From: Halorussus sp. MSC15.2
Lineage (GTDB): Archaea > Halobacteriota > Halobacteria > Halobacteriales > Haladaptataceae
DNA: 64,000 bases
Direction: 5' to 3'
Assembly (NCBI RefSeq): GCF_010747475.1
Contig: NZ_VSLZ01000003.1
Span: forward strand, 434,001-498,000
Position numbers and translations under genes: made by a program. Below the pieces are notes generated by a model, which made no database searches, was not told the origin of the DNA, and saw only the letters and a program-made list of their open reading frames with translations. Positions 28,074 to 46,011 of this stretch are shown here, in pieces; positions within the stretch are counted from its first letter, which is position 1, and the number at the start of each line of letters is the position of its first letter.

Positions 28074-30635
28074 ATGATGGGGAATCGACCGAGAACGGGA
28101 CTCGCGACGATAACCGCGGTACTACTCGTGACGACCGCCGTCGCGGGTGCGACAGCAGTCGGTAGCACCTCGCTGGTACAGTCCGCCGAGGCCTCAGCGG
28201 TGCAGTCCGCCGAGAGCATCGACGCACGCATACTGAACTTCAACCAACAGACGGGGTCGTTCGAGGAGGGCGAGACCGTCAGAGCGGAAGTGGAGGTACG
28301 CAACACCGGCGATAGCAGGCACACCTTCTTCGTCGGGTACGGCGTCCGTGGTCCCGACGGGAACTGGTACAACAACGACGACCAGACCGGGACGACGGTG
28401 ACGCTCGACCCGAACGAGCGCGAGTGGGTGACGCTCAGTTGGACCGTCGAGTCGGACGCTCCCTACGGGTGGTACGACGCGAGAACGTCGGTCTGGGCCG
28501 AGAGCGACCGTAACGACCTCCACACTCGACTCGCCGACGAGAGTCGGGGCAGCGCCTTCGAGGTGGTCGAACCCACGAACCAACCCCCGGACGCCGAAAT
28601 ACAGTGTACGGACACCGAGGTGGCGGTCGGCGACACGGTGACCTGCACGGCGGACCGTTCGAGCGACACCGACGGGTCGGTCACGTCCTACCAGTGGGAG
28701 TTCGGAGGACAGGACACCGACTACGGTGAGACCGCGTCCCACGCCTTCGACCGGAGCGGTCTCTACTCGGTCGAACTGACGGTGACCGACGACGATGGCG
28801 CGACCGACAGGACCTCCGTGACGGTCAGCGTCGAAGACACGACCGACCCGCCGTCGGCGTCGCTGAGTTGTACTCCCACCGAAGTGACGGTAGGCGAGCG
28901 CGTCGAGTGCACCGCGTCGGGGTCGAGCGACCCCAACGGCGACATCTCGACGTTCGACTGGACCTTCGGCGACGGAACGAGCGAATCCGGCGAGTACGTC
29001 GGTCACACCTTCGACGAGGCGGGGACCTACACCGTCGAACTCGACGTGACGGACGAGACCGGCGCGACCGACACTGCCACGGGGACGATACGCGTCGAGA
29101 GCGCCGCCGAACCGCCGTCGGCGTCGCTGAGTTGTACTCCCACCCGAGTGACCGCGGGTGAGACCGTCGAGTGCACCGCGTCGGGGTCGAGCGACCCCAA
29201 CGGCGACATCTCGACGTTCGACTGGACCTTCGGCGACGGAACCGGCGACTCCGGGACGTACGCCAGTCACGCCTTCGACGAGGCGGGGACCTACACCGTC
29301 GAACTCGACGTAGCAGACGAGACGGGCGCGACCGATACCGTCTCCGAGACGATTCGCGTCGAAGCGGCGGCCGAGCCGCCGTCGGCCCGAATCTCGTGCA
29401 GTCCCACCGAGGTGACGGTGGGCGAGACCGTCGAGTGCACCGCGTCTGGGTCGAGCGACCCCAACGGCGACATCTCGACGTTCGAATGGCGTTTCGAGGA
29501 CGGGACCACCGGTTACGGCGAGCGCGTCACCCACAGTTTCGACGAACCGGGAACGTACAGCGTCGAACTAGACCTCACCGACGAGACCGACCGCACGGCC
29601 AGCGCGACCGCCGAGATTTCCGTGACGGAGAAGAACGAGAAGCCGAACGCGCAGATTTCCTACTCACCGGCGCACCTCGAACGCGGCGACACGGTGACGT
29701 TCGACGCGAGCGACTCGACGGACCCCGACGGGAGCGTCAGCGAGTACAAGTGGGTGTTCGACGGCACCGTGAAACGCGGGGAGACGGTCCAGTACAGCGT
29801 CGAGAACACCGGCGACTACACCGTCGAGCTCGTGGTGATGGACGGAGACGGCGGGTCGGACACCGCGGCCCAGTCGCTCTCGGTCCGGCGTCGGCCCACC
29901 GCCGACTTCGATTTCACGCCGAAACAGCCCAGTTCGGGACAGAGCGTCTCATTCACAGCGGAGCAGGACGCGCGCGTCGAGCGGTACGAGTGGGACTTCG
30001 ACGGCGACGGTGAGTACGACGCTCGCGGTCGGAAGGTGACCCACGACTTCGACTCGCCCGGCAAGTACTCGGTGCAACTCCACGTCGTCGGGAAGGGCGA
30101 CATGGAGAACACGGCGACGAAGATAGTCACCGTCCAGCAGAACGCCTACTTCCAATTGACCGCCGACCGCGCGACGGTCGAGACCGGGAACGGGACCGCG
30201 GTCGTGATGTTCAGCGTCTCGAACCACGTCAACGACCGTCCACTACAAGTCAAACTCGAACTCGACCTGCCCGACGAGGGCGTCTCGATACAGAGCGTCG
30301 CGGGCGAGTCGCCGGTGAGTCGGAAGGCTACCGACTTCTTCACGGTCGAGGCGGGCGCGGACGAGAGCTTCAGGGTCCGCCTGCAGGTGAACGAACCCGG
30401 GACGTACGACATCGGCGGAAAGGCGGTCTACTACTTCGGCGAGCAGGAGGACCGCAGGAGTCGCAGCGTCGGTCCCATCACCGTGCGGACGAAAGGCGCG
30501 GTACAGGACGCCGGCAACAGCGAGGCGAAGGCCGACGACCTCGGCGGGCAAGGGAGCACGCCCGGATTCGGTCCGGGCGTCACGGTCGCCGGACTGGTCG
30601 TCGCGGTCTGGGTCGCGGCGAAGCGACGTTCGTAG
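28074..30635 (+). CDS. Surface protein with PKD repeats and PGF-CTERM anchor
   Basis: An 853-residue secreted protein. Sec signal (TITAVLLVTTAVAGATAVGS), then a CARDB-like domain to about residue 165, then six PKD domains (immunoglobulin-like) from about 170 to 690, of which three carry the same CTPTEV-type start and GDISTFDWTFGDGT core, a further beta domain (DRATVETGNGTAVVMFSVSN), and a C-terminal PGF-CTERM tail: PGFGPGVTVAGLVVAVWVAA with basic end KRRS. The tail is cut and replaced by a lipid by archaeosortase A, so the protein is exposed on the cell surface. No catalytic site; the PKD repeats probably act as spacers or adhesion modules. Start ATG 28074 (a second ATG follows at once). Confidence 0.9.
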   Translation: MMGNRPRTGLATITAVLLVTTAVAGATAVGSTSLVQSAEASAVQSAESIDARILNFNQQTGSFEEGETVRAEVEVRNTGDSRHTFFVGYGVRGPDGNWYNNDDQTGTTVTLDPNEREWVTLSWTVESDAPYGWYDARTSVWAESDRNDLHTRLADESRGSAFEVVEPTNQPPDAEIQCTDTEVAVGDTVTCTADRSSDTDGSVTSYQWEFGGQDTDYGETASHAFDRSGLYSVELTVTDDDGATDRTSVTVSVEDTTDPPSASLSCTPTEVTVGERVECTASGSSDPNGDISTFDWTFGDGTSESGEYVGHTFDEAGTYTVELDVTDETGATDTATGTIRVESAAEPPSASLSCTPTRVTAGETVECTASGSSDPNGDISTFDWTFGDGTGDSGTYASHAFDEAGTYTVELDVADETGATDTVSETIRVEAAAEPPSARISCSPTEVTVGETVECTASGSSDPNGDISTFEWRFEDGTTGYGERVTHSFDEPGTYSVELDLTDETDRTASATAEISVTEKNEKPNAQISYSPAHLERGDTVTFDASDSTDPDGSVSEYKWVFDGTVKRGETVQYSVENTGDYTVELVVMDGDGGSDTAAQSLSVRRRPTADFDFTPKQPSSGQSVSFTAEQDARVERYEWDFDGDGEYDARGRKVTHDFDSPGKYSVQLHVVGKGDMENTATKIVTVQQNAYFQLTADRATVETGNGTAVVMFSVSNHVNDRPLQVKLELDLPDEGVSIQSVAGESPVSRKATDFFTVEAGADESFRVRLQVNEPGTYDIGGKAVYYFGEQEDRRSRSVGPITVRTKGAVQDAGNSEAKADDLGGQGSTPGFGPGVTVAGLVVAVWVAAKRRS
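28861..29652 (+). repeat. 264-bp tandem PKD repeats
   Basis: Three units of 264 bp (88 codons) begin at 28861, 29125 and 29389. The first two are almost identical over long stretches (for example CGCTGAGTTGTACTCCCACC is common to both); the third has drifted (CTCGTGCAGTCCCACC). They code for PKD domains of the surface protein. Recent tandem duplication or gene conversion explains this. Confidence 0.8.
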
Positions 30636-30764
30636 CCGCCTCCGCACGGAGAATTCGAGACTTTCGGAATCACAGAGAAAACGATGGTCGGCGGAACCCG
30701 CCTCGTGGAAACTATCCGATGTATTCGAAACCCATTTCACGCCGTGAGCGGAGGCAAGCATCGA

Positions 30765-32009
30765 ATGCAGAATCTCAGGAAGGCAGTCGTCTGTTCGCTC
30801 GTGGCCGTCCTCGTCGCCAGTGTTTCGGTTGCCCCGGTAACCGGGGCGGCGTCGGCCGCGTCCGGTTCCGGCGGCGTTACGGTACACGCGTCGCCCGACG
30901 CGACGGACGTCGCGACGGGGGAGACGACGACCACCGCAGTCGTGGCGTCGAACGTCACCGCAGGGGTCGGCGCGTACAACCTCACGGTCGCGCTCTCGAA
31001 CGCCTCCGTCGCTCGAATCGCGGACTACTCGCTGGTCGGCGGCCCGGAGGGGGCCAGCGTAGAGACGAACGCGGACAACTCGTCGCTCCGTGTCACGGCA
31101 TACGGCGTCGATACGGACCAGAACGGGACCGTGGAACTCGTGCGACTCGAACTGGCCGGCGAGACCGTCGGGGAGTCTGACGTGGACATCGACGTTCGCG
31201 TTATCGGTGACGAGGCGGGCAACGAGTACGAACCCGTCTCGGTCTCCGCAGGCACCCTCTCGGTGTCGGAGCGACCGCGGACCACCACCACGACGAGCGA
31301 CGGCGGTAGCGGCCGCGGTGGGGGCGGCGGCGCGAACGTGCCACCACCGCCGGTCCAACTCTCGACCGAACGGACCGACGGCGGCGTCCGACTCGACGTC
31401 CGGAACGCGCGACCCGGCGAGAGCGCGGGTGCTTCGGTCGCCGGTCTCGCCGCGGGCGACGCGACACTCGAACGCGTGGACCTCGAGTTCGTGGGCGAGA
31501 CCGCCCACGTGGTGTTCGAACTCACGGGCGCCGACGGGACTCCCGACGGAATCACCCGCCCGCCGGGCGACGCAGTCCTCGGCCACGTCGCGGTCGCGAC
31601 TCGGTACGCCTCGGCGTCGGTCGTCGGTCGGGCGACGTACCGATTCGGCGTCTCGGCGGACGCGTTGCCGGGAGGCGCGACGCTCGACGACGTGACCGTC
31701 TATCGCTACGCGGACGGGTCGTGGACCGAGGTCCGCGTGGTGCGCGATTCGAACGCGTTCACCGCGACGACCGACCGACTCTCGCAGTTCGCCGTCGTGG
31801 TCGACCGGAGTAGCGACAACCCGGTGACGAGTACCGCGGCGACGGAGACGACCGGCGAGGGGTCGGCCGCGACCGGGACGACCGGCGAGGAGGCGGGCAA
31901 GACCGCGAACACCGGCGGAGACGCCGAAGGTGGGGTCCCCGGGTTCGGGGGCGGCGTCACGCTCGGAGCGCTGGTCGGCGGCGTCCTGTTCGCACTAGGT
32001 CGGAGGTAG
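30765..32009 (+). CDS. PGF-CTERM surface protein with N-terminal cohesin-like domain
   Basis: A 414-residue surface protein. Sec signal (VVCSLVAVLVASVSVAPVTG), then a domain at about residues 38-165 with the cohesin pattern: HASPDATDVATGETTTTAVV, VGAYNLTVALSNASVARI and a final strand EYEPVSVSAGTLSV. After it comes a Thr/Ser/Gly/Pro linker (TTTTTSDGGSGRGGGGG then PPPPVQ), a PGF-pre-PGF domain (YRYADGSWTEV, RLSQFAVVV), a Thr/Gly stalk and PGF-CTERM tail (VPGFGGGVTLGALVGGVLFA, RR end) for archaeosortase A anchoring. Cohesin binds dockerin, and the next gene ends in a dockerin. ATG 30765 is chosen as start of the signal; 30684 is an upstream alternative. The cohesin call is by pattern only. Confidence 0.85.
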   Translation: MQNLRKAVVCSLVAVLVASVSVAPVTGAASAASGSGGVTVHASPDATDVATGETTTTAVVASNVTAGVGAYNLTVALSNASVARIADYSLVGGPEGASVETNADNSSLRVTAYGVDTDQNGTVELVRLELAGETVGESDVDIDVRVIGDEAGNEYEPVSVSAGTLSVSERPRTTTTTSDGGSGRGGGGGANVPPPPVQLSTERTDGGVRLDVRNARPGESAGASVAGLAAGDATLERVDLEFVGETAHVVFELTGADGTPDGITRPPGDAVLGHVAVATRYASASVVGRATYRFGVSADALPGGATLDDVTVYRYADGSWTEVRVVRDSNAFTATTDRLSQFAVVVDRSSDNPVTSTAATETTGEGSAATGTTGEEAGKTANTGGDAEGGVPGFGGGVTLGALVGGVLFALGRR

Positions 32010-32151
32010 CGGTTCCGCGTTCTCGGGAGACGGGGTGAATCGCTTCGAGCCGGGGTAACGATGCATTTAATACCCCTTGTTGAAACAAATCTATACCGAC
32101 AGGTCAGAAGTATATCCTATATTCTGGTGACGTATTCAGGTAAATACCGGA

Positions 32152-32159
32152 CATATACT
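32152..32159 (+). promoter_or_regulatory. TATA box of the giant beta-helix gene
   Basis: CATATACT at 32152-32159, about 27 nt before the ATG at 32183, in an A+T-rich gap. Leaderless transcription is likely. Confidence 0.6.
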
Positions 32160-32182
32160 GACAAATAAGAACAACGTAGAAC

Positions 32183-35100
32183 ATGGTCTCGAAATCACGA
32201 AGACGGAAGAGCGTACTTCTTATCGGAATCGTCCTCGTCTCGGTAGCCTCGGCATCGACGCCCACCGCGGCGCTTCCGCAGTCGAGCGGACTCGACGCGC
32301 CGAGCGTAGACGTCCCCGAGGTCCTCGAAGGGGTCTCGTTCTCGCTGACGACGGCCACCATCGTCGTCGATTCCGACGGGTCGGGGGACTATCGAACGAT
32401 TCAGGCCGCCGTCGATAACGCGAGCGCCGGCGACACGGTCCGGATAGAACCGGGGGTGTACGCCGAATCGGTGCGAATCTCGAAGCCCCTCGACGTCCGC
32501 GCACCGAACGGCGCGACGCTCGACGGGTCGTCGCTGAGCAGTTCCGCGGACGGGGTTCGCCTCTACAACGACGCCAAGGTCTCTATCTCGGGAATCACGG
32601 TTACGGGGTACGACAACGCGATACTCGCGAACGGCGTCGGCCGGAACGTCTCTCTCTCCGACGTCACGCTGAAACAGAATCGTCGGGGTCTCTACGTGGA
32701 CGACACGTACAGTCGCTGGGAAATCCACGACAGTGTCGTCAAGAACAACAGTCTCGTCGCTATCCAGACCAGCAGTTCCTCGCTGGGAAACGCGACGGCT
32801 AACTACTGGGGCCGGTCCGACGGCCCGACGAAGGGGCAATGCCGGGGCGACGTGGACTGCGGCTACTTCCTCTCCAGTCCGTCCGATTCGGTGTCCGTGC
32901 CCGCGGACCGAACCGGGACCTACGTCGTGGCCAACGACGGGTCGAAACCCTACGCCACGATACAGGACGCGATTCAGGCCGCTCCGTCCCGCGCGACCGT
33001 GGAAGTTCGACCCGGCACCTACACCGAATCGGTGCAGGTCAGGCAACCGCTCTCGCTCGTCGCACCCGACGGCGCGACCCTCAACGGGTCGGCTCGGAGG
33101 TCGAGCGCCGACGGGGTCCGCCTCTACAACGACGCCAACGTCACCGTCTCCGGGTTCACCGTCGAAGGATGGGACGAGGGCGTCCGCGCCGACAACGTCG
33201 ATAGCGAGTTCCTGATAGAGAACGTCGTCCTCCGGCAGAATCAGGACGGTCTCTACGTCGAAGAGACGTACAACAGGTGGGACATCCAGCATAGCGAGAT
33301 TTACAATAACTCCCACACCGGCGTCCGTAGCGCCGACCACCTCGGCGACGCCACCGAGAACTACTGGGGCCGGGCCGACGGTCCCACGAGAGCGCAGTGC
33401 CGCGGCGACGTGGACTGCGGCTACTTCCTGTCGTCGCCCACCGACTCCGTCTCGGTCCCGTCGAACCGAACGGGGACCTACGTCGTGGCGAACGACGGCT
33501 CGAAGCCCTACGCCACGATGCAGGACGCGATTCAGGCCGCCCCGTCCCACGCCACCGTCGAAGTCCGGCCCGGTACTTACACCGAGTCGGTGCAGGTCAA
33601 ACAACCGCTCTCGCTCGTGGCACCCGACGGCGCGACCCTCAACGGGTCGGCTCGGAGGTCGAGCGCCGACGGGGTTCGCCTTTACAACGACGCCAACGTC
33701 ACCGTCTCCGGATTCACCGTCGAACGCTGGGACGACGGCATCCGTGCCGACAACGTGAACACTCGATTCCTCGTCGAGAACGTCGTCCTCCGGCAGAATC
33801 AGGACGGTCTCTACGTCGAAGAGACGTACAATCGCTGGGACATCCAGCACAGCGAGATTTACAACAACTCCAACGCCGGCGTCCGTAGCGCCGACCACCT
33901 CGGCGACGCCACCCAAAATTACTGGGGTCAGTCCGACGGCCCGACCCGCGGGCAGTGCCGCGGCGAGGCGGACTGCGGCTACTTCCTGTCGTCGCCCACC
34001 GACTCCGTCTCGGTCCCGTCGAACCGAACGGGGACCTACGTCGTGGCGAACGACGGCTCGAAGCCCTACGCCACGGTACAGGACGCCATCCGGGCCGCAC
34101 CCGCTCGTGCGACTGTCGAAGTTCGACCCGGCACGTATTCGGAATCCGTTCGACTGAGCAAACCGCTCTCGCTCGTCGCGCCCGACGGCGCGACCCTGAA
34201 CGGGTCCACCCGGAACTCCGGTGTTGACGGAATCAGGCTCTACAACGACGCAAACGTCACCGTCTCCGGGTTCACGGTCGAAGGATGGGACCACGGCATC
34301 GACGCCTACAACGTCGATAGTGGGTTCCTGATAGAGAACGTCGTCCTCCGGCAGAACCGAGACGGTCTCTACGTGGACGACACGTACAACGGGTGGGATA
34401 TCCAACACAGCGAGATTTACAACAACTCCAACGCCGGCGTCCGCGGCGTCTCCTCACAACTCGGTGACGTCACGAGAACTACTGGGGCCAGTCCGACGGG
34501 CCGCTCCGAGCACAGTGCCGCGGCGACGTGGACTGCGGCTACTTCCTGTCCAGTCCAACCGATTCGGTCACAGTTCCGTCCGACCGGACGGGAACCTACG
34601 TCGTGGCGAACGACGGAACCGAACCGTACGCCACGATTCAGGACGCGATTCGGGCCGCCCCGAGCGGTGAGACGGTCACCGTTCGCGGCGGCACGTACTT
34701 GGAGTCGATTCGAATCAGCAAGCCGCTCACGCTGACCGCTCCGCAAGGGGCGACGTTGGATGGCTCGTCCCGCAACTCGGGGGCAGATGGGATTCGCCTC
34801 TACAACGACGCAAACGTCACCGTCTCCGGGTTCACCGTCGAAGGATGGGACCACGGCATCGACGCCTACAACGTCGATACCCCGTTCGTCGTCGAGGACG
34901 TCGTCCTCCGGCAGAATCGAGACGGTCTCTACGTGGACGACACGTACAACGGGTGGACGTCCAGCACAGCGAGATTTACAACAACTCCAACGCCGGCGTC
35001 CGCGGCGTCTCCTCACAACTCGGTGACGCCACCGAGAACTACTGGGGTCAGTCCGACGGTCCGACCCGCGGGCAGTGCCGCGGCGACGTGGACTGCGGCT

Positions 35101-38100
35101 ACTTCCTGTCGTCGCCCACCGACTCCGTCTCGGTTCCGGCCAATCGCTCCGGGACGTACGTCGTGGCGAACGACGGCTCGAAGCCCTACGCCACGATTCA
35201 GGACGCGGTTCGAGCCGCGCCCGCTCGCGCGACCGTCGAGGTCCGGCCCGGCACGTATTCGGAGTCGGTCCGACTGAGCAAACCCCTCTCGTTCGTCGCG
35301 CCCGACGGCGCGACCCTGAACGGGTCCACCCGCAACTCCGGCGCTGACGGAATCAGACTGTACAACGACGCCAACGTCACCGTCTCCGGGTTCACCGTCG
35401 AAGGGTGGGACCACGGCATCGACGCCTACAACGTCGATACCCCGTTCGTCGTCGAGAACGTCGTCCTCCGACAGAACCGAGATGGACTCTACGTGGACGA
35501 CAACTACAATCGCTGGGACATCCAACACAGCGAGATTTACAACAACTCCAACGCCGGCGTCCGCGGCGTCTCCTCGCAGGTCGGCGACGCCACCGAGAAC
35601 TACTGGGGCCGGGCCGACGGTCCCACGGGAGCGCAGTGCCGCGGCGACGCGGACTGCGGCTACTTCCGCTCGACGCCGACAGAAACGGTCTCCGTTCCGG
35701 CCAATCGCTCCGGAACGTACGTCGTGGCCAACGACGGGACCCAACCGTACGCCACGATACAGGACGCCATCCGGGCCGCACCCGCTCGCGCGACCGTGGA
35801 AGTTCGACCCGGCACGTACTCCGAGTCGGTCCGACTGAGCAAACCGCTCTCGCTCGTCGCGCCCGACGGCGCGACCCTGAACGGGTCCACCCGCAACTCG
35901 GGTGCAGATGGGATTCGACTCTACAACGACGCGAACGTCACCGTCTCCGGATTCACCGTGGAATCGTGGGACCACGGCATCGACGCCTACAACGTCGATA
36001 GCGAGTTCCTGATAGAGAACGTCGTCCTCCGGCAGAACCGCGACGGTCTCTACGTGAACGACAACTACAATCGCTGGGACATCCAGCACAGCGAGATTTA
36101 CGACAACTCCAACGCCGGCGTCCGCAGCGTCTCCTCGCAGGTCGGCGACGCCACCGAGAACTACTGGGGGCAGTCCGACGGCCCGCTCCGAGCACAGTGC
36201 CGCGGCGACGTGGACTGCGGCTACTTCCTGTCGAGTCCCGACGGGTCGGTCGACGTTCCGCTAGTCCGGTCTCACGTCCTCGTCGTGGCGAACGACGGGT
36301 CGGCACCGTACGCCACGATACAGGACGCGGTCCGTGCCGCGAAGGCGGGCGACACCGTCGAGGTTCGGCCCGGCGTCTACCGGGAACGCGTCAGGATTCA
36401 GAAGGACATCAACCTGACCGCGCCGCGAGGGGCGCAGCTCAACGGTTCGACGCTCAACGACGGAGCAGACGGGATACACCTCTCGAACGGCGGGGGCGCG
36501 TCCATCTCCGGATTCGTCGTCAGGGAGTTCGACGTGGGCGTTCGCGCCTCCAGCACCGACCGAGCGGTGGCCATCGGCAACTCCCACCTCGTGAACAACA
36601 GCGAGGCCCTTCGGGTGCGCTACGCGAACGCCCCGGTGGAGATTCACGACAGTATGGTCGCGAACAACCGCAACTCGGGAATCTACGCCTATCGGTCCCC
36701 GACGGTCGATGCGACCCGGAACTACTGGGGCCAAATCGGCGGGCCGGTCTCCGGCCAGTGCGACTCGGCGGCCGACTGTTCGAATCCCCTCTCCGGCGTT
36801 CCGGAGGTCCGCGGCGACGAGATATCCTACACGTCGCCCAGCGAGTTGGAGTTCAACGTCGGGATGCGAACGCCGGTCGCCAACCGGAGCCTGCGACTCA
36901 GGAGCGCCGGCGTCACGACGACCGGCGTCGAAATCGCGAAGGCCGAGTGGAGCTTCGGCGACGGGGCGACCGCCAGAGGACTCGAAGTCGCCCACGCCTA
37001 CGACTCGCCCGGCGTCTACACCGTCACCCACTCGGTCGTGACCGAGGACGGCCGGGGCTACTCCGTCACCCGACAGATAAAGGTCGGCGAGGAACCCGAG
37101 GAGTTCGACGTCGTCTCGGTCACGCCCCACCTGTCGGGCCACCCCCGGAAAGACGTCGTCGTCATCGAGGGCCTGCCGCTGGACCTGAGCTATCGCGCCA
37201 CGGTCAGCCAACCGTCGAACACCGCAGAAGTCCGGTTCAGACTGAACAACTCGACGTACGTCGATTCGGACGGGAGCGACGGGTACACCTTCCCCGTGAA
37301 CACCAGCAACGTCACGTCCGACGAGACGCTGGTCGCCACCGCAGTCCACACCAACGGCACGACCGCGAGTCGGGCGCTTCGCGTCGGCCACGTCTCGACG
37401 CCGGGGTGGTTCGAGGCGATGACCGTCTCGGTGACGCGCCCGACCCACGGCTACCTGATACTGTCGTCCTCGAAGCCAGCCAGCCTCTCGAACAAGATAC
37501 CGAACAAGTTCCCGTTCAAGGACGAGGTGAAGATGCCGGGCGCGGGCGAGAACCAGCAGACCAGCGCCGCGGTGACCGTCACCATCAAAGTAGACCTGAC
37601 GACGACCGAGGCGGAGGCGTCGGTCGGCGGGGGAGCGTCGTACGACCTCAAGGTCGTCAACGTCACCGGGAACGCCACCGGCAAGGCGTTCGTCGACCTC
37701 GAAGAGGGCAACCTCACGAAGGGCGAACTCGAACTCAAGGCGACCGCGACGGCGGAGTATCCCCCGCCGCCGACGGGCGTCCCGAGTCCGCCGATAGGTC
37801 CGGTTCCGCCGGGAGCGGTGAGCCTCTACCCCATCTTCAGCGCGGAACTGAAGGTGACGACGACCTTCGACGAGAAGGACACCGCGGGGTCGGGCGACAA
37901 CGTCTCGTTCGAGTTCGAGAAGGGCGAGGTCTCACCCAAACTCGGGGCGAAACAGGAACTCGGGAAGAAGTGGAACGAGTTCGCGCTCGTCCTCGGTCTC
38001 GAAGAGGAGATAGTGACGAAAGCCCCGTTACCCGGACTGAGTCCGATAGACGGCACGGTGGCCGGGCAGTTGTACGCCCGCGCGCAGGCCTACATGTTCA

Positions 38101-40940
38101 CGCAGGAGGCCTACTACCCGTCCGGGAAGAAAGAGAAGTTCACCTACGACTTCGAACTGCTACAGGAGGAGACGACCTTGAGCGCCGACGGAACGACCTC
38201 GGACGGCGGTTCGGCCGACGCCACGGAGACGCGGAGTTCCGGCGATACGTCGTGGAGCGTCCGGGAGCGAACCGGCGACCGGCCCCCGAAGCCGACGGTC
38301 ACCGCTGGCGACGGGAGTGAACAGACCCTGACCCACCGGATGGGGTTCGTCGGGAGCAGTTTCAACTCGGCGGGAGCGACGCCCACGAGAATCGCCGAGA
38401 CCGGCGTCGTCACCAACAACACCGTCGCCGACGAGTCGCCCGCCGTCGCTCGAATCGGAGACGCCCACACCGTCGCGTGGGGCCACCAGTCGGCCGAGAA
38501 GTCCGCGCTCAACGGTCGCGACATACGGGTGTCACGGATGGACGACAGTGGGATTACGTCGCCGTCCCCGGTCACCGACGACTCGTGGAGCGACCACGAC
38601 CCCGCGCTCACCGGGTCGGCCCGAAACGGGTCGCTCGTCGCGTTCACTACCTTCGACCGGACGTTCGAGAACGTCAGCGGGCCGTCCGACGTGTACGCCC
38701 ACGGCGAAATCCGAATCGCGACGTCCGACGGGTCCGGGTGGGACGCGCCGCAGTTCGTGACCGACGATGCCGACTTCGACTTCGCGCCCGCTGTCGCCCA
38801 GCGCGGTGACGAGTGGGTCGTCGCGTGGACCGAGGACGCCGACGAGAACCTGACGACGTGGCGCGACCAGTCGGTCCAGTACGCGCGGTACAACGGGACG
38901 CTGGGACCGGTCCAGACCGTCGAGACGGCGCGCGCGCCCGACGTGTCCGCGACCGCCGACGGGTTCCGCGTCGGCTACCTGTCGATGAACGACAGTTCCG
39001 TCGAGGGGTCGGTGACGGTCCGAACCGTGAGCGCTCGGGACGGACTCCCCGAGCAGTCCGAGCGCGCGATTTCCGTCGGTCAGTTCGGCGGCATGGACGT
39101 CAGCGCGACCCACGTCGGCGTCGTCGATACCGGAGCGAACGACACGCACCTGCGAATCGCCAACAGCACAGACGTTCGGTCGGTCGGGCTGAAGTCGAAC
39201 GTATCGACCCCGCAGACGGTCGAACTAACCGAGCGGGACGGCGACCTGCTCGTGGACTTCCGGGCGTACCCCGCCGCGAGCGACGTCGCGGCCGCGTACT
39301 ACAAGCCGCGAATCGGCGGGCGGTGGCTCCCGGCGCGCAAGTACGCCGACGGGTCCCACCGGAACCTCACGTTCTGGCAGGGAGACGCGGCCCCCAGCAG
39401 TGACGGCTTCGTGTCGGTGTTCGCCGGGCAGGACCTCACTTCCGACCAGCAACCCGACGTCTACGCGTTCAAGCACCGGTTCCACCCCGACCTGACGGTG
39501 AACGCGTCGGTCGCCGCCGAGAACGTCAGCGCCGGAACGCAGGTGGACGTCCGGTACGCGGTGCGCAACACCGGCGACGCTCCGGCCGACGCGTCCGACC
39601 TGCTCGTGAAGTCCGGCGACGGACACCTGAAGTCGGTCTCGCTCGGGTCGATACCGGCGGGCGAGACCGCCTCGGGCACGGCGACCGTGACGGTCGATAG
39701 CACCGGGACGCTGTCGGTCGTCGCCGACGCCGGGAGCGCGGTTCCCGAACTCGACGAGCGGAACAACGACGACCGGGCGCTCGCGCTGGACCCCGACCTG
39801 AACGTCACGGGGATGACGGCCGCACGGGCGAACGACACGATAACCGTCTCCGCCACCGTGACCAACCCGTCCGGCGTCCGGGCGACCGACGTGGCGTATC
39901 GGTTGGGCAACGGGCCGGACGTCCAGCGATACGGGACGGTGTCGCTGCTCGAACCGAACGCGACCCGGACGGTCAACGTCTCGCTGCCGGTCGCCGAGAC
40001 CGACCCCGCGTACACGACCCGGTTCGAGGTCACCCCGAACGAGACGGGCGTCGAGGGCGACGCCTCCGACGACGCGGCGTCGCGGTACCTGTTCCGACCC
40101 GACCTCGCGCTCAGCGACGGCCAGATAGGCTACTACCGGACGGACGGCGTCGTCCGCGCGTCGATGCTCGTCTCCAACGAGGGACTGGCGAACGCGACCG
40201 CGGAAATCGAGGTCCGGAACGCGTCCACCGGTAGTCTCGTGGCCTCGCGGAACGTCACCGTCGCGGGCAGCGACTCCTCCCAGACGACGGCGTTCACGGA
40301 GGCGACCGTCGGCCTGCCCGGCGTCTCGTCCGGTTCCGGTGTCGAAATTCTAATCACCGCGCCCGGAGAGACCGCACTCTCGGACAACGTCGTCGTGGAC
40401 GAAGTCGAACTGAACACCACACTCGTCCCGCCGAGCGGGGAAATCAGCGCGAGTCGGTCGTCCGTGACCGTCAACGAGTCCGTCCAGTTCACGATTGCCA
40501 ACGTGACCGACGCCGACGGTCGGGCGGTTCACACGCAGTGGCGGGTCGCGAACACCTCCGCCGCGGACACCGGTTCGCTCGACTGGACCGGCCGGAGTCC
40601 GGGGAACCACACCGTCGAACTCGTGGTGGTGGACGACGACGGCGTCACCACGATAGTCACCCGGACCGTGCTCGTCCGTCCGGAGCGCCCCGACGTGGTC
40701 CTCGGTTCGCAGGCCCCGCGCGACCTCGACCGCGACGGGCGCTTCCGCGACGTTGACGGCGACGGGACGCTCGCCCGGAGCGACGTGCGAACGTTCTTCG
40801 AGTCCTACCGGAACAGTTCGGTTCGGGACAACCAGTTCGCGTTCGACTTCAACCGGGACGACGAGCGCATCGACATCCTCGACGTGCAGGCGCTCCACGC
40901 CGACAACGAGGAGTCGAGCGACGGGTCGGACGAGCAGTAA
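32183..40940 (+). CDS. Giant secreted beta-helix/dockerin protein, frame-broken twice
   Basis: About 2,919 residues when two one-base gaps are restored. Order: Sec signal (VLLIGIVLVSVASASTPTAA), eight repeats of 186-187 residues with the parallel beta-helix/NosD pattern (YATIQDAI, VRPGTY, VAPDGATLNGS, VTVSGFTVEGWD, NYWG-SDGP, CRGDVDCGYFLSSP), a PKD domain (EWSFGDGATARGLEVAHAYD), a long beta-rich region with coiled stretches, a propeller-like set of repeats (PAVARIGDAHTVAWG, PALTGSARNGSLVAF, PAVAQRGDEWVVAW), several CARDB domains, and a C-terminal dockerin. Frame breaks: loss of one C near 34473 and one G near 34956. The 561-bp period is 560 in just those two units, which supports single-base loss. 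Likely extracellular, binding glycans or surfaces and docked through the dockerin to the cohesin protein encoded upstream. Confidence 0.85.
32360..36802 (+). repeat. Eight tandem repeats of about 561 bp
   Basis: The codons for YVVANDGS (or IVVDSDGS in the first) start at 32360, 32921, 33479, 34037, 34597, 35157, 35718 and 36279. Steps are 561, 558, 558, 560, 560, 561 and 561 bp. Units two to seven are nearly identical at DNA level; the first and last are older. The 558-bp units have SADHLGDA where the others have GVSSQ-GDA (one codon fewer). Such homogeneous repeats imply recent unequal recombination or gene conversion, and they are also prone to assembly error. Confidence 0.9.
40722..40913 (+). 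other. Dockerin-type domain at the end of the giant protein
   Basis: The last 65 or so codons hold two EF-hand-like calcium loops: DLDRDGRFRDVDGDGTLARS followed by DVRTFFESYR, and FDFNRDDERIDILDVQALHA. The second loop ends with the DVQAL helix of type I dockerins. In bacterial cellulosomes such domains dock enzymes onto cohesins; here a cohesin-like domain is encoded by the neighbour at 30765. Confidence 0.75.
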
Positions 40941-41025
40941 CCGCCTCGCTTCTCGCGTATCGGTTCGAGAATCGAAGCGCGGGTTCGCGGAGTTTCTCGG
41001 AGGAAGAGACCGTACCAGCGGTCGC

Positions 41026-44000
41026 TCAGTCGTACAACTGTCGCGTGACCGCCCACAGGAGGACGACGAGCGCGACCCAGAGGACGCCACCGGCGGCACC
41101 GACCGCGAGCAGGCCGTCGGTGCCCAGTAGCCCGAATCCGACCCAGACGGCGACGCCCGCCGCCGCGAAGCCGTTGATGGTCCTCCCGCTGACGGGCACG
41201 CCCGCGCTCCGGAACGTGAGGACCGTCCCGTACGCGCCGAGGACCAGCGCGACGCCGTAGAGCGCGAGACCGAGCAGTCCACCGAACGTCGAGAAGACGG
41301 TCGCCGAGGGGAGGAGACCCCCGTCTGCGTCCCCGGTGGCGTTCGGCGTCGCGGTCCCGTTCGCTCCTCCGACGCCGCTCGGCGCGTCGGACGTGCCGCG
41401 GGTCTCGTTCGTCGCCGCGGCCATCTTGCGCGGTCGGACGACGACCGTCGCGGTCGCGGGGTCTGCGTTCTCCACGCCCGCGTCGTCCGTCACGTTCACC
41501 GAGACCGTGTAGTTGCCCGGGGTCTCGAACGAGAGGGTGACGTTCGGCGACGACGAGACGGTGAGGTTCGGCGACGTGACGTTCTCGCGCCGGTCCGCGA
41601 CCGAGAACCGGTAGGACGCGACGCGACCGTCGCGGTCGCCGGACTCCGCGGCGGAGACGCGGACGCGCTCGCCGACCCTCGCGGGGTTCGGCGAGACGCT
41701 GACGTTCGCCGCCGGGCGGTACCGGGGCGAGCGGAGCGCAGCGTCGGCGACCGGGAGGAAGTCCACCCAGCCGCGTCGGGTGACGATGCGGTCGCCGGTT
41801 CCCTCCGGGTGAATCGAGGAGTGTGTGGGACCGTCGGGCGCGCCCCAGTAGTTGCGCTCGGCGACGACAGTCCGGGTCGTGTTGACGAGCAGTCGCGTGG
41901 TCGTGTTCACGTCCACGAGCGTGCTGACGTTCACCATCATACCGTGAGGGTGGCCGTACACGTCGTTCTCTCGGACGACGACCCGCGAACGGCGGTCGGC
42001 GTCCTTGGGGAGCGTGATGCCTGTGGGGAGGTCCTCGGAGAGCGACCGGACCGTGAGCGCCGTGTCGTCGCTCTCCCAGACGTCGCCCGCAGCGCCCGGC
42101 CGGAGGACGACCGTGTAACTATCGCCGACTCTCCCCCGGAGTTCACCCTCGACCTGCGGGTCGTCGAGCAGTACCGCGAGTTTCTCGTCCACGTCACCGG
42201 TCCTGAAAATCGCGCCCGCGTCGCCGCCCTCCACGACGATGCCCGTTCCCGGTCGGTAGCCGGAGAGTTCGACCGGCGCACCGACGCCGTACGTGTTGTG
42301 GGCTATCGTGTTGTGGTGGACGCGCGCGCCCAGCGAACCGGCGATGCGAACTCCGTACGCGTTCGCGGTCACGACGTTGCGGGTCAGGTCGATTCGCCCG
42401 GCGTGGGTCAACTCGTTGGCCACGTTCAGGCCGACGCCCGCGTTGTCGAAGACGCGGTTCGCCGCGACCGTGAGGTTGTGAGCCACGACACTCGTCCGGA
42501 CCGAGAAGCCGTGGCCGCGGTTCTCCGCGAAGCGATTGTCCGCGACTCGACCGTGACGGACCTGCCGTCCGACGAGTTCGAATCCCGTTCCGTCGTTGTT
42601 CGAGACGGTGTTGTTCGCGACTGTCGTGCGGGCGAGGCGTCTCGCTTCGAGTCGGACGCCGCCGTCTCCGTTTCGGGTGACGTCGTTCCCGCGAACGGTG
42701 ACTCTCGTCAGTCGCGTGGACGGGGCCACGACCGAGATACCGTGGCCGTCGTTCCGCGAGAGTTCGTTGTCGGCCAGCGCGAGCGAGACGTGTTGGACGT
42801 AGTAGGCCGCGACGTGTCGGACGCGAACGCCGGTCTCGCTCTCGGTGACGGAGTTGTTCGCCACCCGAACCCCGTCGACGTTCCGATGGCGTGCGAACAG
42901 GGCGATGCCAGCGTCGGCGTCGGTAATTCGGTTTCCGCGAAGCTTCGAGTCGGCGGCGCGCTGTGCGGCGATGCGAACGCCGTCCGCGCCGCGGCCGACC
43001 GAAGCGACGTGGTTCCCGCCGACGGCGACCGACTCGACTCGTCGCCCGCGGAGGCTGACGGCCGACCCGCCGACGTTCGTGACGGAGTTGTTCGCCACAC
43101 GGAAGTCGTGTGCCGCGTCGGCGGCGACGAACACGGCCTGTTCGCCGAGAGAGTCGAAGGTCGAACCGGTTATCGAGAACCGACTCGCGCGACTCGTCTC
43201 GGCGTTCCCGCGGTCGGCGCGCCGGTGCCGGTCGCCGGAGGAACTGAGGTCGAGGGGCAGCGTCGTCTCCGCCGTCTGCTCGACGCCGTTCCGCAGGAGG
43301 CTGACTTCGACGGGGTAGGTTCCGTACGTTCGCGGGTTGACCGCGTCGTCGTAGACAGCGACCACCGTGGCGTCGGCCGGAATCGTGACCGAGCGGTTCA
43401 GTCGTATCTCGTAGGCGTTGCCCGTCCCGTTGCCGAGACCGGCCATCAGCGGTTTGAGCGACCGGTCCACCGTTCCGTTGCCGTTGAGGTCGAGACCGAA
43501 CGTCGAGAACGAATCCGCCTCGACCTCGCGGACCCCGCCGTGACCGCGGTACGCGACCCGGAGAGCGTCCACGGTCGTGTCCGCACCGAGCGTGAACGTC
43601 GCCCGGTGGGTGGCCCGCTTCCCGGTCGCACTCCAGTTCGAGACGACGGCGGCGTCGCTGACCGTTCCCATGCCGGGCGTGACGGCGACGCCGCGCCGAC
43701 CGACGTCGGTGAACGTCGAGCGTTCGACCGACAGCCTCGGCGTGCGCGGGGTGTCCTCGACCAGAATCCCGTTTCGACTCACGTTCCGGACGGTGACGTC
43801 GGCGACCGAGACGCGGCCCGCCGCGCTGCTCACGGTGAGTCCGTTCTCGGCCCTCTCGACGGTCGCGTGGGAGAGCGAGAGGTGCGAGTCCGAGCGCCCC
43901 TCGTACCGAATCGACGCCCACCGAACGCGGTCGGGGGCCTCGGACGCGGTCGTGAACGCGATGGGTTCGGCCCGCGTACCGTCGGCGCTGAGATTCCCTT

Positions 44001-44283
44001 CGACCCGAATCGTGATTGCCTCCGCGAGTTGGACGGTCGTTCCGGGTTCGATGCGGAGCGTCGCCCCCTCCTCGACGGTCACGTCCGCCGCGACTCGGTA
44101 CGGGCCGTCCTCGGCGGACCACGTCGTGTCGTCGGTCACGTCGCGTTCGACGTACGTCACGTCGTCCGTTCCGCCCGCCGAGACGACGCCTGCCGGAGCG
44201 CCGACAGAAGCGAGACCGGCCGCGGTAACTCCGAGACCGAACACGAGGACGACGGCGAGTATCCGAGTCCGAGCGCGGTTCAC
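41026..44283 (-). CDS. Secreted beta-helix protein with PKD domain and multi-helix membrane end
   Basis: A 1,085-residue protein from GTG 44283. Sec signal (ILAVVLVFGLGVTAAGLASV), then NosD-like right-handed parallel beta-helix from about residue 60 to 790, with many N-x-(S/T) sites and NxxVTN/NDVTRNG-type coils, one NYWGAPDGPTH motif, a PKD-like domain (PNPARVGERVRVSAAESGDR ... FETPGNYTVSVNVTDD), and three to four transmembrane helices at the end (ATVFSTFGGLLGLALYGVAL, GFAAAGVAVWVGFGLLG, GGVLWVALVVLLWAV). It thus is membrane-held, unlike the neighbours with PGF-CTERM tails. It converges on the giant gene with 85 bp between them. Role unknown; beta-helices of this kind bind or cut polysaccharide, but no catalytic residues stand out. 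Confidence 0.88.
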   Translation of the reverse strand: MNRARTRILAVVLVFGLGVTAAGLASVGAPAGVVSAGGTDDVTYVERDVTDDTTWSAEDGPYRVAADVTVEEGATLRIEPGTTVQLAEAITIRVEGNLSADGTRAEPIAFTTASEAPDRVRWASIRYEGRSDSHLSLSHATVERAENGLTVSSAAGRVSVADVTVRNVSRNGILVEDTPRTPRLSVERSTFTDVGRRGVAVTPGMGTVSDAAVVSNWSATGKRATHRATFTLGADTTVDALRVAYRGHGGVREVEADSFSTFGLDLNGNGTVDRSLKPLMAGLGNGTGNAYEIRLNRSVTIPADATVVAVYDDAVNPRTYGTYPVEVSLLRNGVEQTAETTLPLDLSSSGDRHRRADRGNAETSRASRFSITGSTFDSLGEQAVFVAADAAHDFRVANNSVTNVGGSAVSLRGRRVESVAVGGNHVASVGRGADGVRIAAQRAADSKLRGNRITDADAGIALFARHRNVDGVRVANNSVTESETGVRVRHVAAYYVQHVSLALADNELSRNDGHGISVVAPSTRLTRVTVRGNDVTRNGDGGVRLEARRLARTTVANNTVSNNDGTGFELVGRQVRHGRVADNRFAENRGHGFSVRTSVVAHNLTVAANRVFDNAGVGLNVANELTHAGRIDLTRNVVTANAYGVRIAGSLGARVHHNTIAHNTYGVGAPVELSGYRPGTGIVVEGGDAGAIFRTGDVDEKLAVLLDDPQVEGELRGRVGDSYTVVLRPGAAGDVWESDDTALTVRSLSEDLPTGITLPKDADRRSRVVVRENDVYGHPHGMMVNVSTLVDVNTTTRLLVNTTRTVVAERNYWGAPDGPTHSSIHPEGTGDRIVTRRGWVDFLPVADAALRSPRYRPAANVSVSPNPARVGERVRVSAAESGDRDGRVASYRFSVADRRENVTSPNLTVSSSPNVTLSFETPGNYTVSVNVTDDAGVENADPATATVVVRPRKMAAATNETRGTSDAPSGVGGANGTATPNATGDADGGLLPSATVFSTFGGLLGLALYGVALVLGAYGTVLTFRSAGVPVSGRTINGFAAAGVAVWVGFGLLGTDGLLAVGAAGGVLWVALVVLLWAVTRQLYD

Positions 44284-44304
44284 AGTGTTGGTTCAAAGAT
44301 ACGA

Positions 44305-44314
44305 GACATAAATC
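44305..44314 (-). promoter_or_regulatory. TATA box of the beta-helix gene at 44283
   Basis: On the minus strand GATTTATGTC at 44314-44305, about 27 nt before the GTG at 44283. Leaderless transcription is likely. Confidence 0.65.
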
Positions 44315-44400
44315 ATGCCCTTCGTGACGTTTCGCCGGGCGCGACGCCGCTCTCGGCGTCGCTGATAGTCACCGCCGCGGAACGGGTCCGGTCGCGGGCG

Positions 44401-44583
44401 TCAGCTAGTGTGTGGCGTTTCGCGCTCGTTCCTATCACCGGATTCCGCAAGGAGCCACAACAGGAGAACCAACGGGAGAACCGGCAGAAGTACGATTGCG
44501 ACCCCCGCCGCGACGATGTACCCGACCGTCCCCATCTGACTGTTGGTCGTCTGTCCCTGCATGCGGGATACTTGTCCGGTCAT
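44401..44583 (-). CDS. Small single-helix membrane protein
   Basis: A 60-residue protein with a polar N-terminus (MTGQVSRMQGQTTNSQMGTV), one hydrophobic helix (VAAGVAIVLLPVLPLVLLLWLLAE) and a charged tail. The LLPxLPLVLLLWLL core is common in small haloarchaeal membrane proteins of unknown role. It ends 34 nt from the MinD-partner gene and reads the same way. Confidence 0.6.
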   Translation of the reverse strand: MTGQVSRMQGQTTNSQMGTVGYIVAAGVAIVLLPVLPLVLLLWLLAESGDRNERETPHTS

Positions 44584-44617
44584 AACATTGGACCTACGTG
44601 TTCGACGGGGAAAGGGG

Positions 44618-45241
44618 TTATTGCAGTTCTCCGTCGAGTCCCCACTCCGCGGCGCGCTCGCGGGCCTCCTCGCGGGCGCGGTCTCGAATCGCGGCTATCT
44701 TCTCCTCGTCGTCCAAGAACGCCTCGACCGCGTCCAACGATTCGTCGGCGTCGTCGCCCGGCCGCTCGTCGCCGCCGTCCCGCCACTCCGGCGGGGCCGC
44801 CTCGCGCGTGCGCTCGGCGAGGTCCGGGTCGCCTGCGAGACGGTCGGCGACCAGTCCGGGCGGGACGCGCAGGTCGGGCGAGTCGTCGGCCGCGAGGGCG
44901 TCGGCCGGGAGCGACCGGAGCGTCACGTCGTACGGTCCCGGCGCGGCGAGGTCGGCCAGCGCCGCCGACCCGCCGCGGTCGGTGCCGGTGTGGTACGCGG
45001 ACCGTGGGACGCCCGACTCGAAGGCGACCACGCCTGCGCCGTCGGCGTCGAGCAACAGCGCGTCCTGCGGTTCGAGGACGGCGTAGCCCGTCAGTTCGCG
45101 GTCGAGTGCGGCGGCGAACGGGACCGACAGGTCCGATTCGACGCGCGAGCGGAGCAGAGTCCCGTCGGCGAGCGACCGCTCGGGAAGAGTCGGCGCGTCT
45201 CGTTCGGGCGGTCCTCGGGCGTCCGAGTCGGGACTGGTCAT
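44618..45241 (-). CDS. Protein coupled to MinD-like ATPase, unknown function
   Basis: A 207-residue cytosolic, acidic protein whose ATG overlaps the MinD stop by 4 nt. It has a beta-rich N-terminal part (DRELTGYAVLEPQDALLLDA and VVAFESGVPRSAYHTGTDRG), a middle GPYDVTLRSLP stretch, and a C-terminal helical end (EEKIAAIRDRAREEARERAA) that looks able to form a coiled coil. No known catalytic motif. Close coupling suggests that it is a partner, target or regulator of the MinD-like protein, as in other haloarchaeal MinD loci. Confidence 0.7.
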   Translation of the reverse strand: MTSPDSDARGPPERDAPTLPERSLADGTLLRSRVESDLSVPFAAALDRELTGYAVLEPQDALLLDADGAGVVAFESGVPRSAYHTGTDRGGSAALADLAAPGPYDVTLRSLPADALAADDSPDLRVPPGLVADRLAGDPDLAERTREAAPPEWRDGGDERPGDDADESLDAVEAFLDDEEKIAAIRDRAREEARERAAEWGLDGELQ

Positions 45242-46011
45242 GGGGAGTCGGGAACAACGGCGCTCCGGAAGCGGTCGGCCACGTCGTCCGATGCACCGGG
45301 TCGCACGTCGAGTGCCGCCGCGGCCCCTCGGTAGGCGCGCGCGGCGTCGCTGTCAGGGGCGTGAGCGAGCAGCGGTTCGCCCGCGCGGCGGGCCGACCGG
45401 GCGGCGTCGGAGTCTGGGACCGTCGCCAGCGTCCGACCGTCGAAGTAGCGTTCGGCCATCTCGGTGACCCCCGACGCGCCCTCGGGGTCGTGGACCTTGT
45501 TGAACACGACGCCCGCGGTGTCGGTGCCGTAGGAGTGGGCGTACTCCTGCACCTTCAGACCGTCGCTGAGCGCCGGAATCGTCGGTTGGAGGACGACCAC
45601 CACGCGGTCGGCGAGGACGACCGGGAGGACCGCGCTCTTCGACCCGAGCGCGGCGGGCGAGTCCAGCAGGAGAACGTCCGTGTCGGCCGCGAGTTCGGCG
45701 ACGACCGCGCGGAGGCGCTCTGGGTCGGCCTCTTCGAACGCGGCGAGACTGGTTCCGCAGGGGACCACCGACATCCCGAATCGGTCGTAGACCGCGTCGG
45801 CGACGTCGGCGTCGGCGTCCGCGACCAGCAGGTCGTGGAGGGTCGCGTCGGCGTCGGTCAGGCCGGTGTGGAACAGCAGGTTCGCCATCCCGGTGTCGGC
45901 ATCGACTATCGTCACGTCGTACTCCTCGGCCAGCGCCATGCCGAGCGCCACCGTCGTCGTGGTCTTGCCGGTGCCGCCCTTCCCGCTGGCTACCGCGAAC
46001 GCCTCGACCAT
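45238..46011 (-). CDS. MinD/ParA-family ATPase
   Basis: A 257-residue ATPase of the SIMIBI group. Deviant Walker A KGGTGKTTTT (residues 10-19), switch I VDADTGMANL, switch II LLLDSPAALGSKSAV, and FNKVHDPEGASGV. The amphipathic C-terminal tail is short or absent, so membrane binding is uncertain. Haloarchaeal MinD homologues place surface machines such as archaella and chemosensory arrays; here the neighbours are a small membrane protein and a partner gene. Start ATG 46011, with a TATA box 27 nt upstream. No replication or plasmid partition gene lies nearby, so a chromosomal positioning role is favoured. Confidence 0.88.
   Translation of the reverse strand: MVEAFAVASGKGGTGKTTTTVALGMALAEEYDVTIVDADTGMANLLFHTGLTDADATLHDLLVADADADVADAVYDRFGMSVVPCGTSLAAFEEADPERLRAVVAELAADTDVLLLDSPAALGSKSAVLPVVLADRVVVVLQPTIPALSDGLKVQEYAHSYGTDTAGVVFNKVHDPEGASGVTEMAERYFDGRTLATVPDSDAARSARRAGEPLLAHAPDSDAARAYRGAAAALDVRPGASDDVADRFRSAVVPDSP

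Follow-up and report, generated by a model that had tools for sequence, protein, structure and literature searches.

Two adjacent genes of the window (the whole 64-kb stretch of DNA analyzed here), one encoding a 414-aa cohesin protein and the other a giant beta-helix protein, probably form a two-gene surface display module, a reading to which we assign a probability of roughly 0.78. In this view, a PGF-CTERM-type tail would fix the secreted 414-aa protein in the membrane, where it would present a single cohesin domain. The giant, also secreted, has no anchor; docking of its C-terminal dockerin onto the cohesin would retain it on the cell and expose its chain of beta-helix, PKD, and CARDB domains to the exterior. 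Such binding and surface exposure we infer, and the giant would most likely serve as an adhesin or a glycan-binding fiber. Our computations provide the cohesin fold, the relationship of the dockerin, the pairing of the two domains across genomes and neighborhoods, the division into anchored and unanchored proteins, and the presence of archaeosortase A. The features concerned are the following.

28074..30635, forward strand: PKD-repeat protein with a PGF-CTERM tail, 853 aa (ORF)
30765..32009, forward strand: cohesin protein, 414 aa from the ATG at 30765 (gene call; ORF start 30684/30765)
30864..31271, forward strand: predicted cohesin domain (AlphaFold2 model; Foldseek and VIA-align matches are cohesins)
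31929..32006, forward strand: PGF-CTERM-like sorting tail of the cohesin protein (by eye)
32183..40940, forward strand: giant beta-helix/PKD/CARDB protein with a putative C-terminal dockerin (frame broken twice as assembled)
32345..36821, forward strand: eight tandem beta-helix units of 558–561 bp, two of them shortened by one base
34450..34490, forward strand: first single-base frameshift, in repeat copy 4
34940..34970, forward strand: second single-base frameshift, in repeat copy 5
40698..40913, forward strand: putative dockerin domain of the giant (alignment profile; PF00404 below its cut-off)
41026..44283, reverse strand: beta-helix/PKD protein with C-terminal hydrophobic helices (ORF)
44618..46011, reverse strand: MinD/ParA-type gene with a small partner, the right border of the inserted block in relatives

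An earlier note had described four large secreted proteins forming a single 16-kb cell-surface island, whose layout it read as that of an adhesion or biofilm module or of polysaccharide capture. The four genes, their secreted-type products (signal peptides called by eye), and the outer coordinates were confirmed, but the unity of the island was not, the genes being scattered in relatives. The PKD protein agrees with its description, with 6 stretches matching PKD_4 of Pfam and a TIGR04126 (PGF-CTERM) score of 25.0 bits, just above the cut-off of 24.5; the same holds for the reverse-strand protein, in which Pfam finds beta-helix and PKD domains and the C-terminus carries hydrophobic segments. 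Two window proteins are internally repetitive (264-bp PKD units; eight beta-helix units), as noted, although the repeats are not homogeneous throughout: the inner six beta-helix units are 79–89% mutually alike at the DNA level, but the first and last have clearly diverged.

The 414-aa protein consists of a signal peptide (by eye), the cohesin domain, a linker, a weak PGF-pre-PGF-like domain (TIGR04213, 16.6 bits, under the cut-off of 28), a threonine-rich stretch, and a PGF-CTERM-like tail. The AlphaFold2 model of its N-terminal domain (alignment A3; pLDDT 93.2) adopts the cohesin jelly-roll fold. Cohesins of the PDB are the top Foldseek matches of the model (best E 1.7e-9) and the best VIA-align match (Z 15.8, rmsd 2.0 over 127 residues), the cohesin of Archaeoglobus fulgidus (2xdh) being the third Foldseek match (E 3.2e-9; VIA Z 14.7; 18% sequence identity). 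Fold prediction was needed because sequence models and the PDB profile search missed this domain. Scans with Pfam and NCBIfam returned no cohesin in the window protein, and PF00963 gave no match on this protein, nor any at this gene in the genome-wide search, in which its three weak matches all lie at other places; within the haloarchaeal family, it matched 1 of 22 members, at E 0.018. In the profile search of PDB sequences, scaffoldins appeared only below the threshold, ranked under an unrelated protein. The cohesin named in the earlier note agrees with this fold; the PGF-CTERM tail that it named is visible by eye and ends the protein in a hydrophobic helix, but is missed by TIGR04126 at E 0.1. 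As candidate substrates of archaeosortase A, the sorting enzyme for PGF-CTERM tails (PGF motif, hydrophobic helix, and basic end), the PKD protein is indicated by score and the cohesin protein by eye only; the enzyme itself is encoded in the genome (TIGR04125, 322.8 bits).

The giant ends in a diverged dockerin, with two F-hand-like loops, the second bearing a one-residue insertion common to the dockerins of the window, of the sister genome G004, and of G008. Two calcium-loop segments in the spacing of type I dockerins were found, and the dockerin alignment (A1) has 17 invariant columns over 7 sequences. The profile of this alignment matches Clostridium thermocellum dockerins in the PDB at 2e-5 (2mte, 1daq, and 1ohz), and its matches to further EF-hand proteins that bind calcium are stronger (7e-10). 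The dockerin proposed in the earlier note is consistent with this profile relation, but PF00404 reaches only 14.0 bits (profile positions 3–53), below its cut-off of 22.9, and gives 0 matches over the whole genome of the window. Among relatives, PF00404 scores 30.5 bits on a subtilase neighbor in G008 and 26.8–38.9 bits in 6 of 7 other dockerin proteins; at E 0.001, it matches neither the dockerin protein of locus L079 nor the giant of G008.

In the genome of the window, the cohesin and dockerin profiles have one match each at E 0.001, in adjacent genes. Across 392 Halobacteriales genomes, 142 contain both domains, 19 dockerin only, 7 cohesin only, and 224 neither, so that a cohesin match accompanies the dockerin in 142 of 161 genomes; these counts rest on the best 15 dockerin and best 10 cohesin candidates per genome, with absences not being proof, and on genomes related to one another, a kinship that the Fisher test ignores. 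The 18 Halorussus genomes include 6 with both domains and 12 with neither (0 discordant). Adjacency was counted in 16 genomes, a set made up of genomes picked for cohesin matches together with G000 (the genome of the window) and G004. A dockerin lies within 10 kb, a limit of our choice that just takes in the window (9.4 kb), of 22 of the 25 cohesin loci in the 16 genomes (0.32 expected by uniform placement) and within 5 kb of 20, with none found within 10 kb at the remaining 3. In the window and G004, the distance of 7–9.4 kb is due to the giant gene separating the two domains. Conversely, a cohesin is found within 10 kb of 30 of 40 dockerins in the 16 genomes (23 of 24 outside G164). Many adjacency cases include one protein with both domains, and part of the co-occurrence therefore reflects a single two-domain protein. 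In G008, the same cohesin gene is flanked by the giant on one side and by an S8 subtilase with a dockerin on the other.

This pairing bears on a different role of the dockerin, namely, binding of a carbohydrate substrate instead of a cohesin. Substrate binding has been proposed for dockerin-bearing haloarchaeal enzymes (PMC10963439; PMC13260240), but neither text contains the word cohesin, and Pfam and NCBIfam fail to pick up the haloarchaeal cohesins. Set against the share of dockerin genomes that are cohesin-positive and the share of dockerins with a cohesin nearby, this explanation is most improbable.

The two kinds of protein also differ in their tails. A C-terminal hydrophobic helix is present in 21 of 25 cohesin-only ORFs (absent from 4) and in 0 of 34 dockerin ORFs (33 distinct, since the L028 fragment of the G008 subtilase was counted also from L106; two broken giants are represented by their dockerin half). 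These figures concern the tail property alone, in 26 stretches chosen for cohesin or dockerin, with gene starts outside named records being our own calls. Co-occurrence, adjacency, and the anchor split together suggest that anchored sockets display unanchored clients, in line with the earlier proposal that one of the four proteins is docked; the sorting enzyme for PGF-CTERM tails is likewise in place.

The cohesin and giant genes are the only two of the four that travel together. Comparison of Halorussus genomes revealed three separate histories instead of one island. The PKD gene is an older resident of the locus, outside the inserted block: its orthologs occupy the same neighborhood in G004, G005, G015, and G006, in the last three without the other three genes. 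The reverse-strand gene is a genus gene with a separate history that changes place between species: in both G005 and G008 it adjoins the same gene pair, which by eye is rhodanese-type, and in G016 it occupies yet another neighborhood; in G000 and G004, its single copy is at the window locus, and the rhodanese-type pair is found either on another contig or at a distance of about 415 kb. G008 carries its cohesin and giant genes as a pair on a different contig. That the four genes are a true adhesion or biofilm island, passed on and acting as a unit, could be argued from the presence of all four genes together in G000 and G004, the secreted appearance of all four products, and dN/dS below 0.4 for each gene. 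The residence of the PKD gene without the rest, the displaced reverse gene (which is also on the opposite strand), and the joint movement of the cohesin–giant pair make such an island very improbable, and the gene scatter, which the earlier note itself had named as grounds for rejecting it, largely refutes it. At the borders of the insertion, the segments 30400–30800 and 44200–44700 share no exact stretch of ≥10 bases in either orientation, and no tRNA was found within the 64-kb window. A contig scan with six short peptide patterns from the C-terminal part of the giant matched only Halorussus aquaticus, in a set that may omit the window's own genome.

Although the Pfam domains of the giant (beta-helix, PKD, and CARDB) and its putative dockerin are present as previously noted, they do not lie in one open frame: the ORFs 32183–34735, 34528–35277, and 34845–40940 occupy three different frames. 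The breaks come from the loss of one base each in repeat copies 4 and 5, because of which the signal-peptide half is not joined to the dockerin half, and the giant would not be displayed in this genome as assembled. Both genomes that have the giant at this locus (G000 and G004) carry frameshifts, that of G004 at a different site outside the repeats, whereas the G008 homolog is intact (2928 aa). The giant could accordingly be a decaying pseudogene in this lineage and the module a relic here, the more so as the other window genes that were compared align unbroken with G004, except for two cut off by the ends of the compared stretches. We consider this possible but rather unlikely. Both lesions in G000 remove one base within near-repeats, a setting in which an assembly error is likely, and dN/dS against G004 is 0.26–0.28 in three comparable parts of the giant on both sides of these lesions (units 4–7, absent from G004, are outside the comparison), close to the intact PKD gene (0.23) and below the cohesin gene (0.34), although a pairwise value averages over time and a recent loss would stay hidden. 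The comparable parts are under purifying selection.

The repeats might also serve to switch the giant on and off, with recombination between units exchanging broken for intact copies. The unit number differs between the sisters (8 in the window and 4 in G004, with 8 in G008), the inner units are similar within one genome, and the lesions in units 4 and 5 have intact neighbors; yet the sister's lesion lies outside the repeats, and two of the three lesions are more simply explained by sequencing error, which renders switching improbable. Programmed frameshifting was set aside, as it would require two separate shifts at unlike sites. A model of three beta-helix units, of middling quality (pLDDT 69.1, pTM 0.51), consists of recurring beta-helix cores with low-confidence stretches between them, and its Foldseek matches (alginate lyases/epimerases, pectin methylesterases, glucanases, and tailspikes; TM <0.4) support a predicted beta-helix fold and indicate no activity.

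Beyond this locus, we give slightly better than even odds to a joint reading in which Halobacteria possess a general modular surface display unseen by annotation. Anchored cohesins would capture varied unanchored dockerin proteins, including beta-helix giants, proteases, phosphatases, and nucleotidases; one branch would serve contact-dependent conflict by tethering polymorphic-toxin-like giants that have an N-terminal dockerin, exchangeable C-termini, and a small gene immediately following; and some loci would be multi-tiered, through proteins combining cohesins with a C-terminal dockerin. Dockerins were already known in haloarchaea; the cryptic cohesins found here escape Pfam and NCBIfam, and in five named plasmid records the cohesin proteins are labeled "hypothetical protein." If the cohesins bind the dockerins, genes now called hypothetical would acquire a role in a shared plug-and-socket mechanism by which cells carry enzymes, fibers, and perhaps toxins. 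The idea can be tested in every one of the 142 genomes with both domains, and a system working at very high salt would be an attractive display tool.

The proposed module resembles the anchoring scaffoldins of the cellulosomes of Clostridium and relatives in its cohesin fold and in combining a cell-bound cohesin with unanchored dockerin clients, and the likeness extends to multi-cohesin proteins with a C-terminal dockerin in G016, G164, G295, and JP-L23. Unlike in cellulosomes, a Pfam scan of nine dockerin proteins at C-terminal-dockerin loci found 0 cellulases; their domains are instead beta-helix, S8 protease, PhoX, 5'-nucleotidase, malectin, or PKD/CARDB; the haloarchaeal anchor is a PGF-CTERM tail or a plain C-terminal helix; and mostly one anchored cohesin gene has one or two client genes beside it. 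The non-cellulosomal cohesin of A. fulgidus is an archaeal structural match, albeit at the low sequence identity given above. Another parallel is provided by the archaeal, non-cellulosic dockerin and cohesin proteins of ANME archaea, some of them multi-cohesin, described in the accessible part of PMC9012536, which does not treat haloarchaea and in which the common dockerin proteins carry ABC-transporter binding components.

Within the haloarchaeal window genome (G000; 4.41 Mb, 25 contigs; window at 434001–498000 of contig C3), whose nearest relative is its sister G004 (proteins of the genes discussed here 91–95% identical), ORF and domain scans of the window recovered the four large secreted-type proteins described in the earlier note. 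Their gene starts were refined with a codon-usage gene call:

28074–30635, forward strand: PKD/PGF-CTERM protein
30765–32009, forward strand: cohesin protein, 414 aa, with a PGF-CTERM-like tail
32183–40940, forward strand: giant beta-helix/PKD/CARDB protein ending in a dockerin
41026–44283, reverse strand: beta-helix protein, here the reverse gene
Neighbouring feature: phosphoesterase gene, on whose other side the PKD gene stands in Halorussus genome G006

The single island into which the four genes had been grouped is not borne out by relatives, where the PKD gene stands alone, the reverse gene lies elsewhere, and the cohesin and giant genes form a pair. In 3 other Halorussus genomes (G005, G006, and G015), the PKD gene is found among several genes of window 21.2–27.7 kb together with the MinD pair of 44.6–46.0 kb, and none of the cohesin, giant, and reverse genes lies between the PKD neighbourhood and that pair. 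Also kept beside the PKD gene in G015 is a 651-aa protein followed by a row of short proteins that have hydrophobic N-terminal segments and look pilin-like by eye (window 18438–23353); a further conserved neighbour (24365–25186) resembles the JAB-type family PF14464, at 22.5 bits against a threshold of 25.

Orthologues of the reverse gene occur in 13 of the 18 Halorussus genomes, the window genome included. The gene adjoins one and the same gene pair (rhodanese-type by eye) in G005 and G008 and is set among other genes in G016. This pair resides on another contig (C5) in G000 and at 1.198 Mb of contig C1, approximately 415 kb from the window locus, in G004, and both genomes carry a single reverse gene, at the window locus, so the reverse gene shifts position among Halorussus genomes. 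Cohesin and giant are side by side in G000 and G004, and likewise on a different contig of G008, the only 3 of 40 genomes searched in which the C-terminal part of the giant is whole; the remainder match single domains.

The cohesin domain comprises 136 residues after the signal peptide, was aligned with 21 relatives, and was modelled with a mean pLDDT of 93.2. Among the first 43 Foldseek matches in the PDB, 42 are by title cohesin, cohesin–dockerin, or cellulosome scaffoldin entries (4 of these titles lack the word cohesin), the exception, at rank 39, being a “CLIPPER” adhesin domain. With VIA-align, a cohesin from Clostridium cellulolyticum scored Z 15.8 and the Archaeoglobus fulgidus cohesin Z 14.7. 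Neither Pfam nor NCBIfam detected a cohesin in the window protein, and a sequence profile search of the PDB reached scaffoldin chains only at E 0.3. In all 5 named plasmid records, cohesin relatives are labelled “hypothetical protein”; the neighbour is a “dockerin type I domain-containing protein” in 2 of the 3 records opened, and the third names nearly all genes hypothetical, yet the dockerin profile matches there.

The last 72 residues of the giant are alignable with haloarchaeal dockerins, and the resulting profile matched C. thermocellum dockerins (2e-5) and, more strongly, other calcium-binding proteins (7e-10) in the PDB. PF00404 scores the window dockerin at 14.0 bits, under its cut-off, which is exceeded by 6 of 7 dockerin neighbours in other genomes and by a G008 subtilase; in G000, G004, and G008 the second loop is longer by one residue.

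Both profiles were searched against 392 Halobacteriales genomes (E 1e-6; best 15 dockerin or 10 cohesin first-look candidates scored per genome). Dockerins were found in 161 and cohesins in 149 genomes: 142 have both, 224 neither, 19 only the dockerin, and 7 only the cohesin (Fisher p 3e-75, in a test that ignores the relatedness of genomes). Within Halorussus, 6 of 18 genomes have both, 12 neither, and none only one. Across 16 genomes picked for having cohesins, a dockerin lies within 10 kb of 22 of 25 cohesin loci (expected, 0.32) and within 5 kb of 20; conversely, a cohesin lies within 10 kb of 23 of 24 dockerins outside genome G164 and of 7 of 16 within it. The window genome and G004 have a single match per profile, in adjacent genes. 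At many loci, a two-domain protein (cohesin plus dockerin) precedes a separate cohesin gene, and pairing is therefore partly within one protein.

A hydrophobic C-terminal helix (mean Kyte–Doolittle >1.6 over a 17-residue window in the last 40 residues) was present in 21 of 25 cohesin-only ORFs of the fetched stretches, 5 with PGF, and in 0 of 34 dockerin ORFs (33 distinct) from those stretches; the window genome encodes archaeosortase A (ArtA). To the cohesin fold, sequence relationship, pairing, tails, and ArtA, all shown by computation, we would add a proposed mechanism in which the cohesin protein sits anchored and catches the giant through its dockerin. Dockerin-bearing clients in relatives include PhoX, 5'-nucleotidase, and malectin/PKD proteins. 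G008 also encodes an S8 subtilase with a C-terminal dockerin (stretch L106, 17–3940), the cohesin gene lying between subtilase and giant, so that one cohesin could possibly serve 2 clients.

As assembled, the giant gene falls into three frames, copies 4 and 5 of its repeat each having lost a base that the remaining copies retain. The G004 gene has a lesion at a different site, a two-base gain outside the repeats, and that of G008 is open (2,928 aa). Between G000 and G004, dN/dS is 0.28, 0.26, and 0.28 in the giant's three comparable parts (units 4–7, missing from G004, fall outside the comparison), against 0.23, 0.34, and 0.38 in the PKD, cohesin, and reverse genes and 0.11–0.20 in five neighbours; on these ratios, purifying selection has acted on the giant for most of its evolution, and the lesions may be sequencing errors, recent loss, or switching. 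Beta-helix units number 8 in G000, 4 in G004, and 8 in G008, and a three-unit model of middling confidence has apparently separate beads with loose links; we would guess at a fibre of variable reach.

Other giant secreted-type proteins have a dockerin near the N-terminus (stretches L088 [NZ_CP010532.1, 25344–41628], L074, L075, and L095–L100), with an anchored cohesin gene placed divergently. The copy on contig C1 of genome G217 has ~1,500 residues in common (57–60%) with those of G191, G285, and G372, after which the C-termini differ; the G386 giant matches it to the end, and those of CBA1115 and G300 are more distant. TSP3 repeats occur in both giants scanned. In 7 of 10 stretches examined, the giant has a plausible small gene no more than 200 bp behind it, that of L088 being Imm49-like (29.7 bits vs a cut-off of 30.1; the RefSeq name agrees). 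No C-terminal toxin domain exceeded a Pfam cut-off. The layout resembles that of polymorphic toxins, with a putative cohesin–dockerin tether. Such toxins may, reportedly, already be described by Makarova et al. in mBio in 2019; the literature searched on polymorphic toxins yielded none with a dockerin. In the part of PMC3482391 consulted, polymorphic toxins are called rare in archaea, haloarchaeal ones being delivered by PVC-type systems.

Among the papers listed by searches that joined cohesin or dockerin to archaea in general, to haloarchaea (also as Halobacteria or halophilic archaea), to Archaeoglobus or Halorussus, or to PGF-CTERM (25 of 131 papers in one search), none has haloarchaeal cohesins as its subject, judging by titles and abstract openings in a literature that excludes most subscription papers. 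The portions seen of PMC10963439 and PMC13260240 suggest substrate binding for dockerins of haloarchaeal enzymes, and those of PMC9012536 review archaeal cohesin–dockerin pairs, citing Peer et al., and report multi-cohesin proteins in ANME. G016, G164, G295, and Haloarcula sp. JP-L23 encode proteins that combine several cohesins with a dockerin at the C-terminus; the gene runs encoding them in L090 (the JP-L23 plasmid), L076 (G016), and L078 (G164) adjoin multi-cohesin or anchored cohesin proteins and resemble multi-tier scaffoldins.
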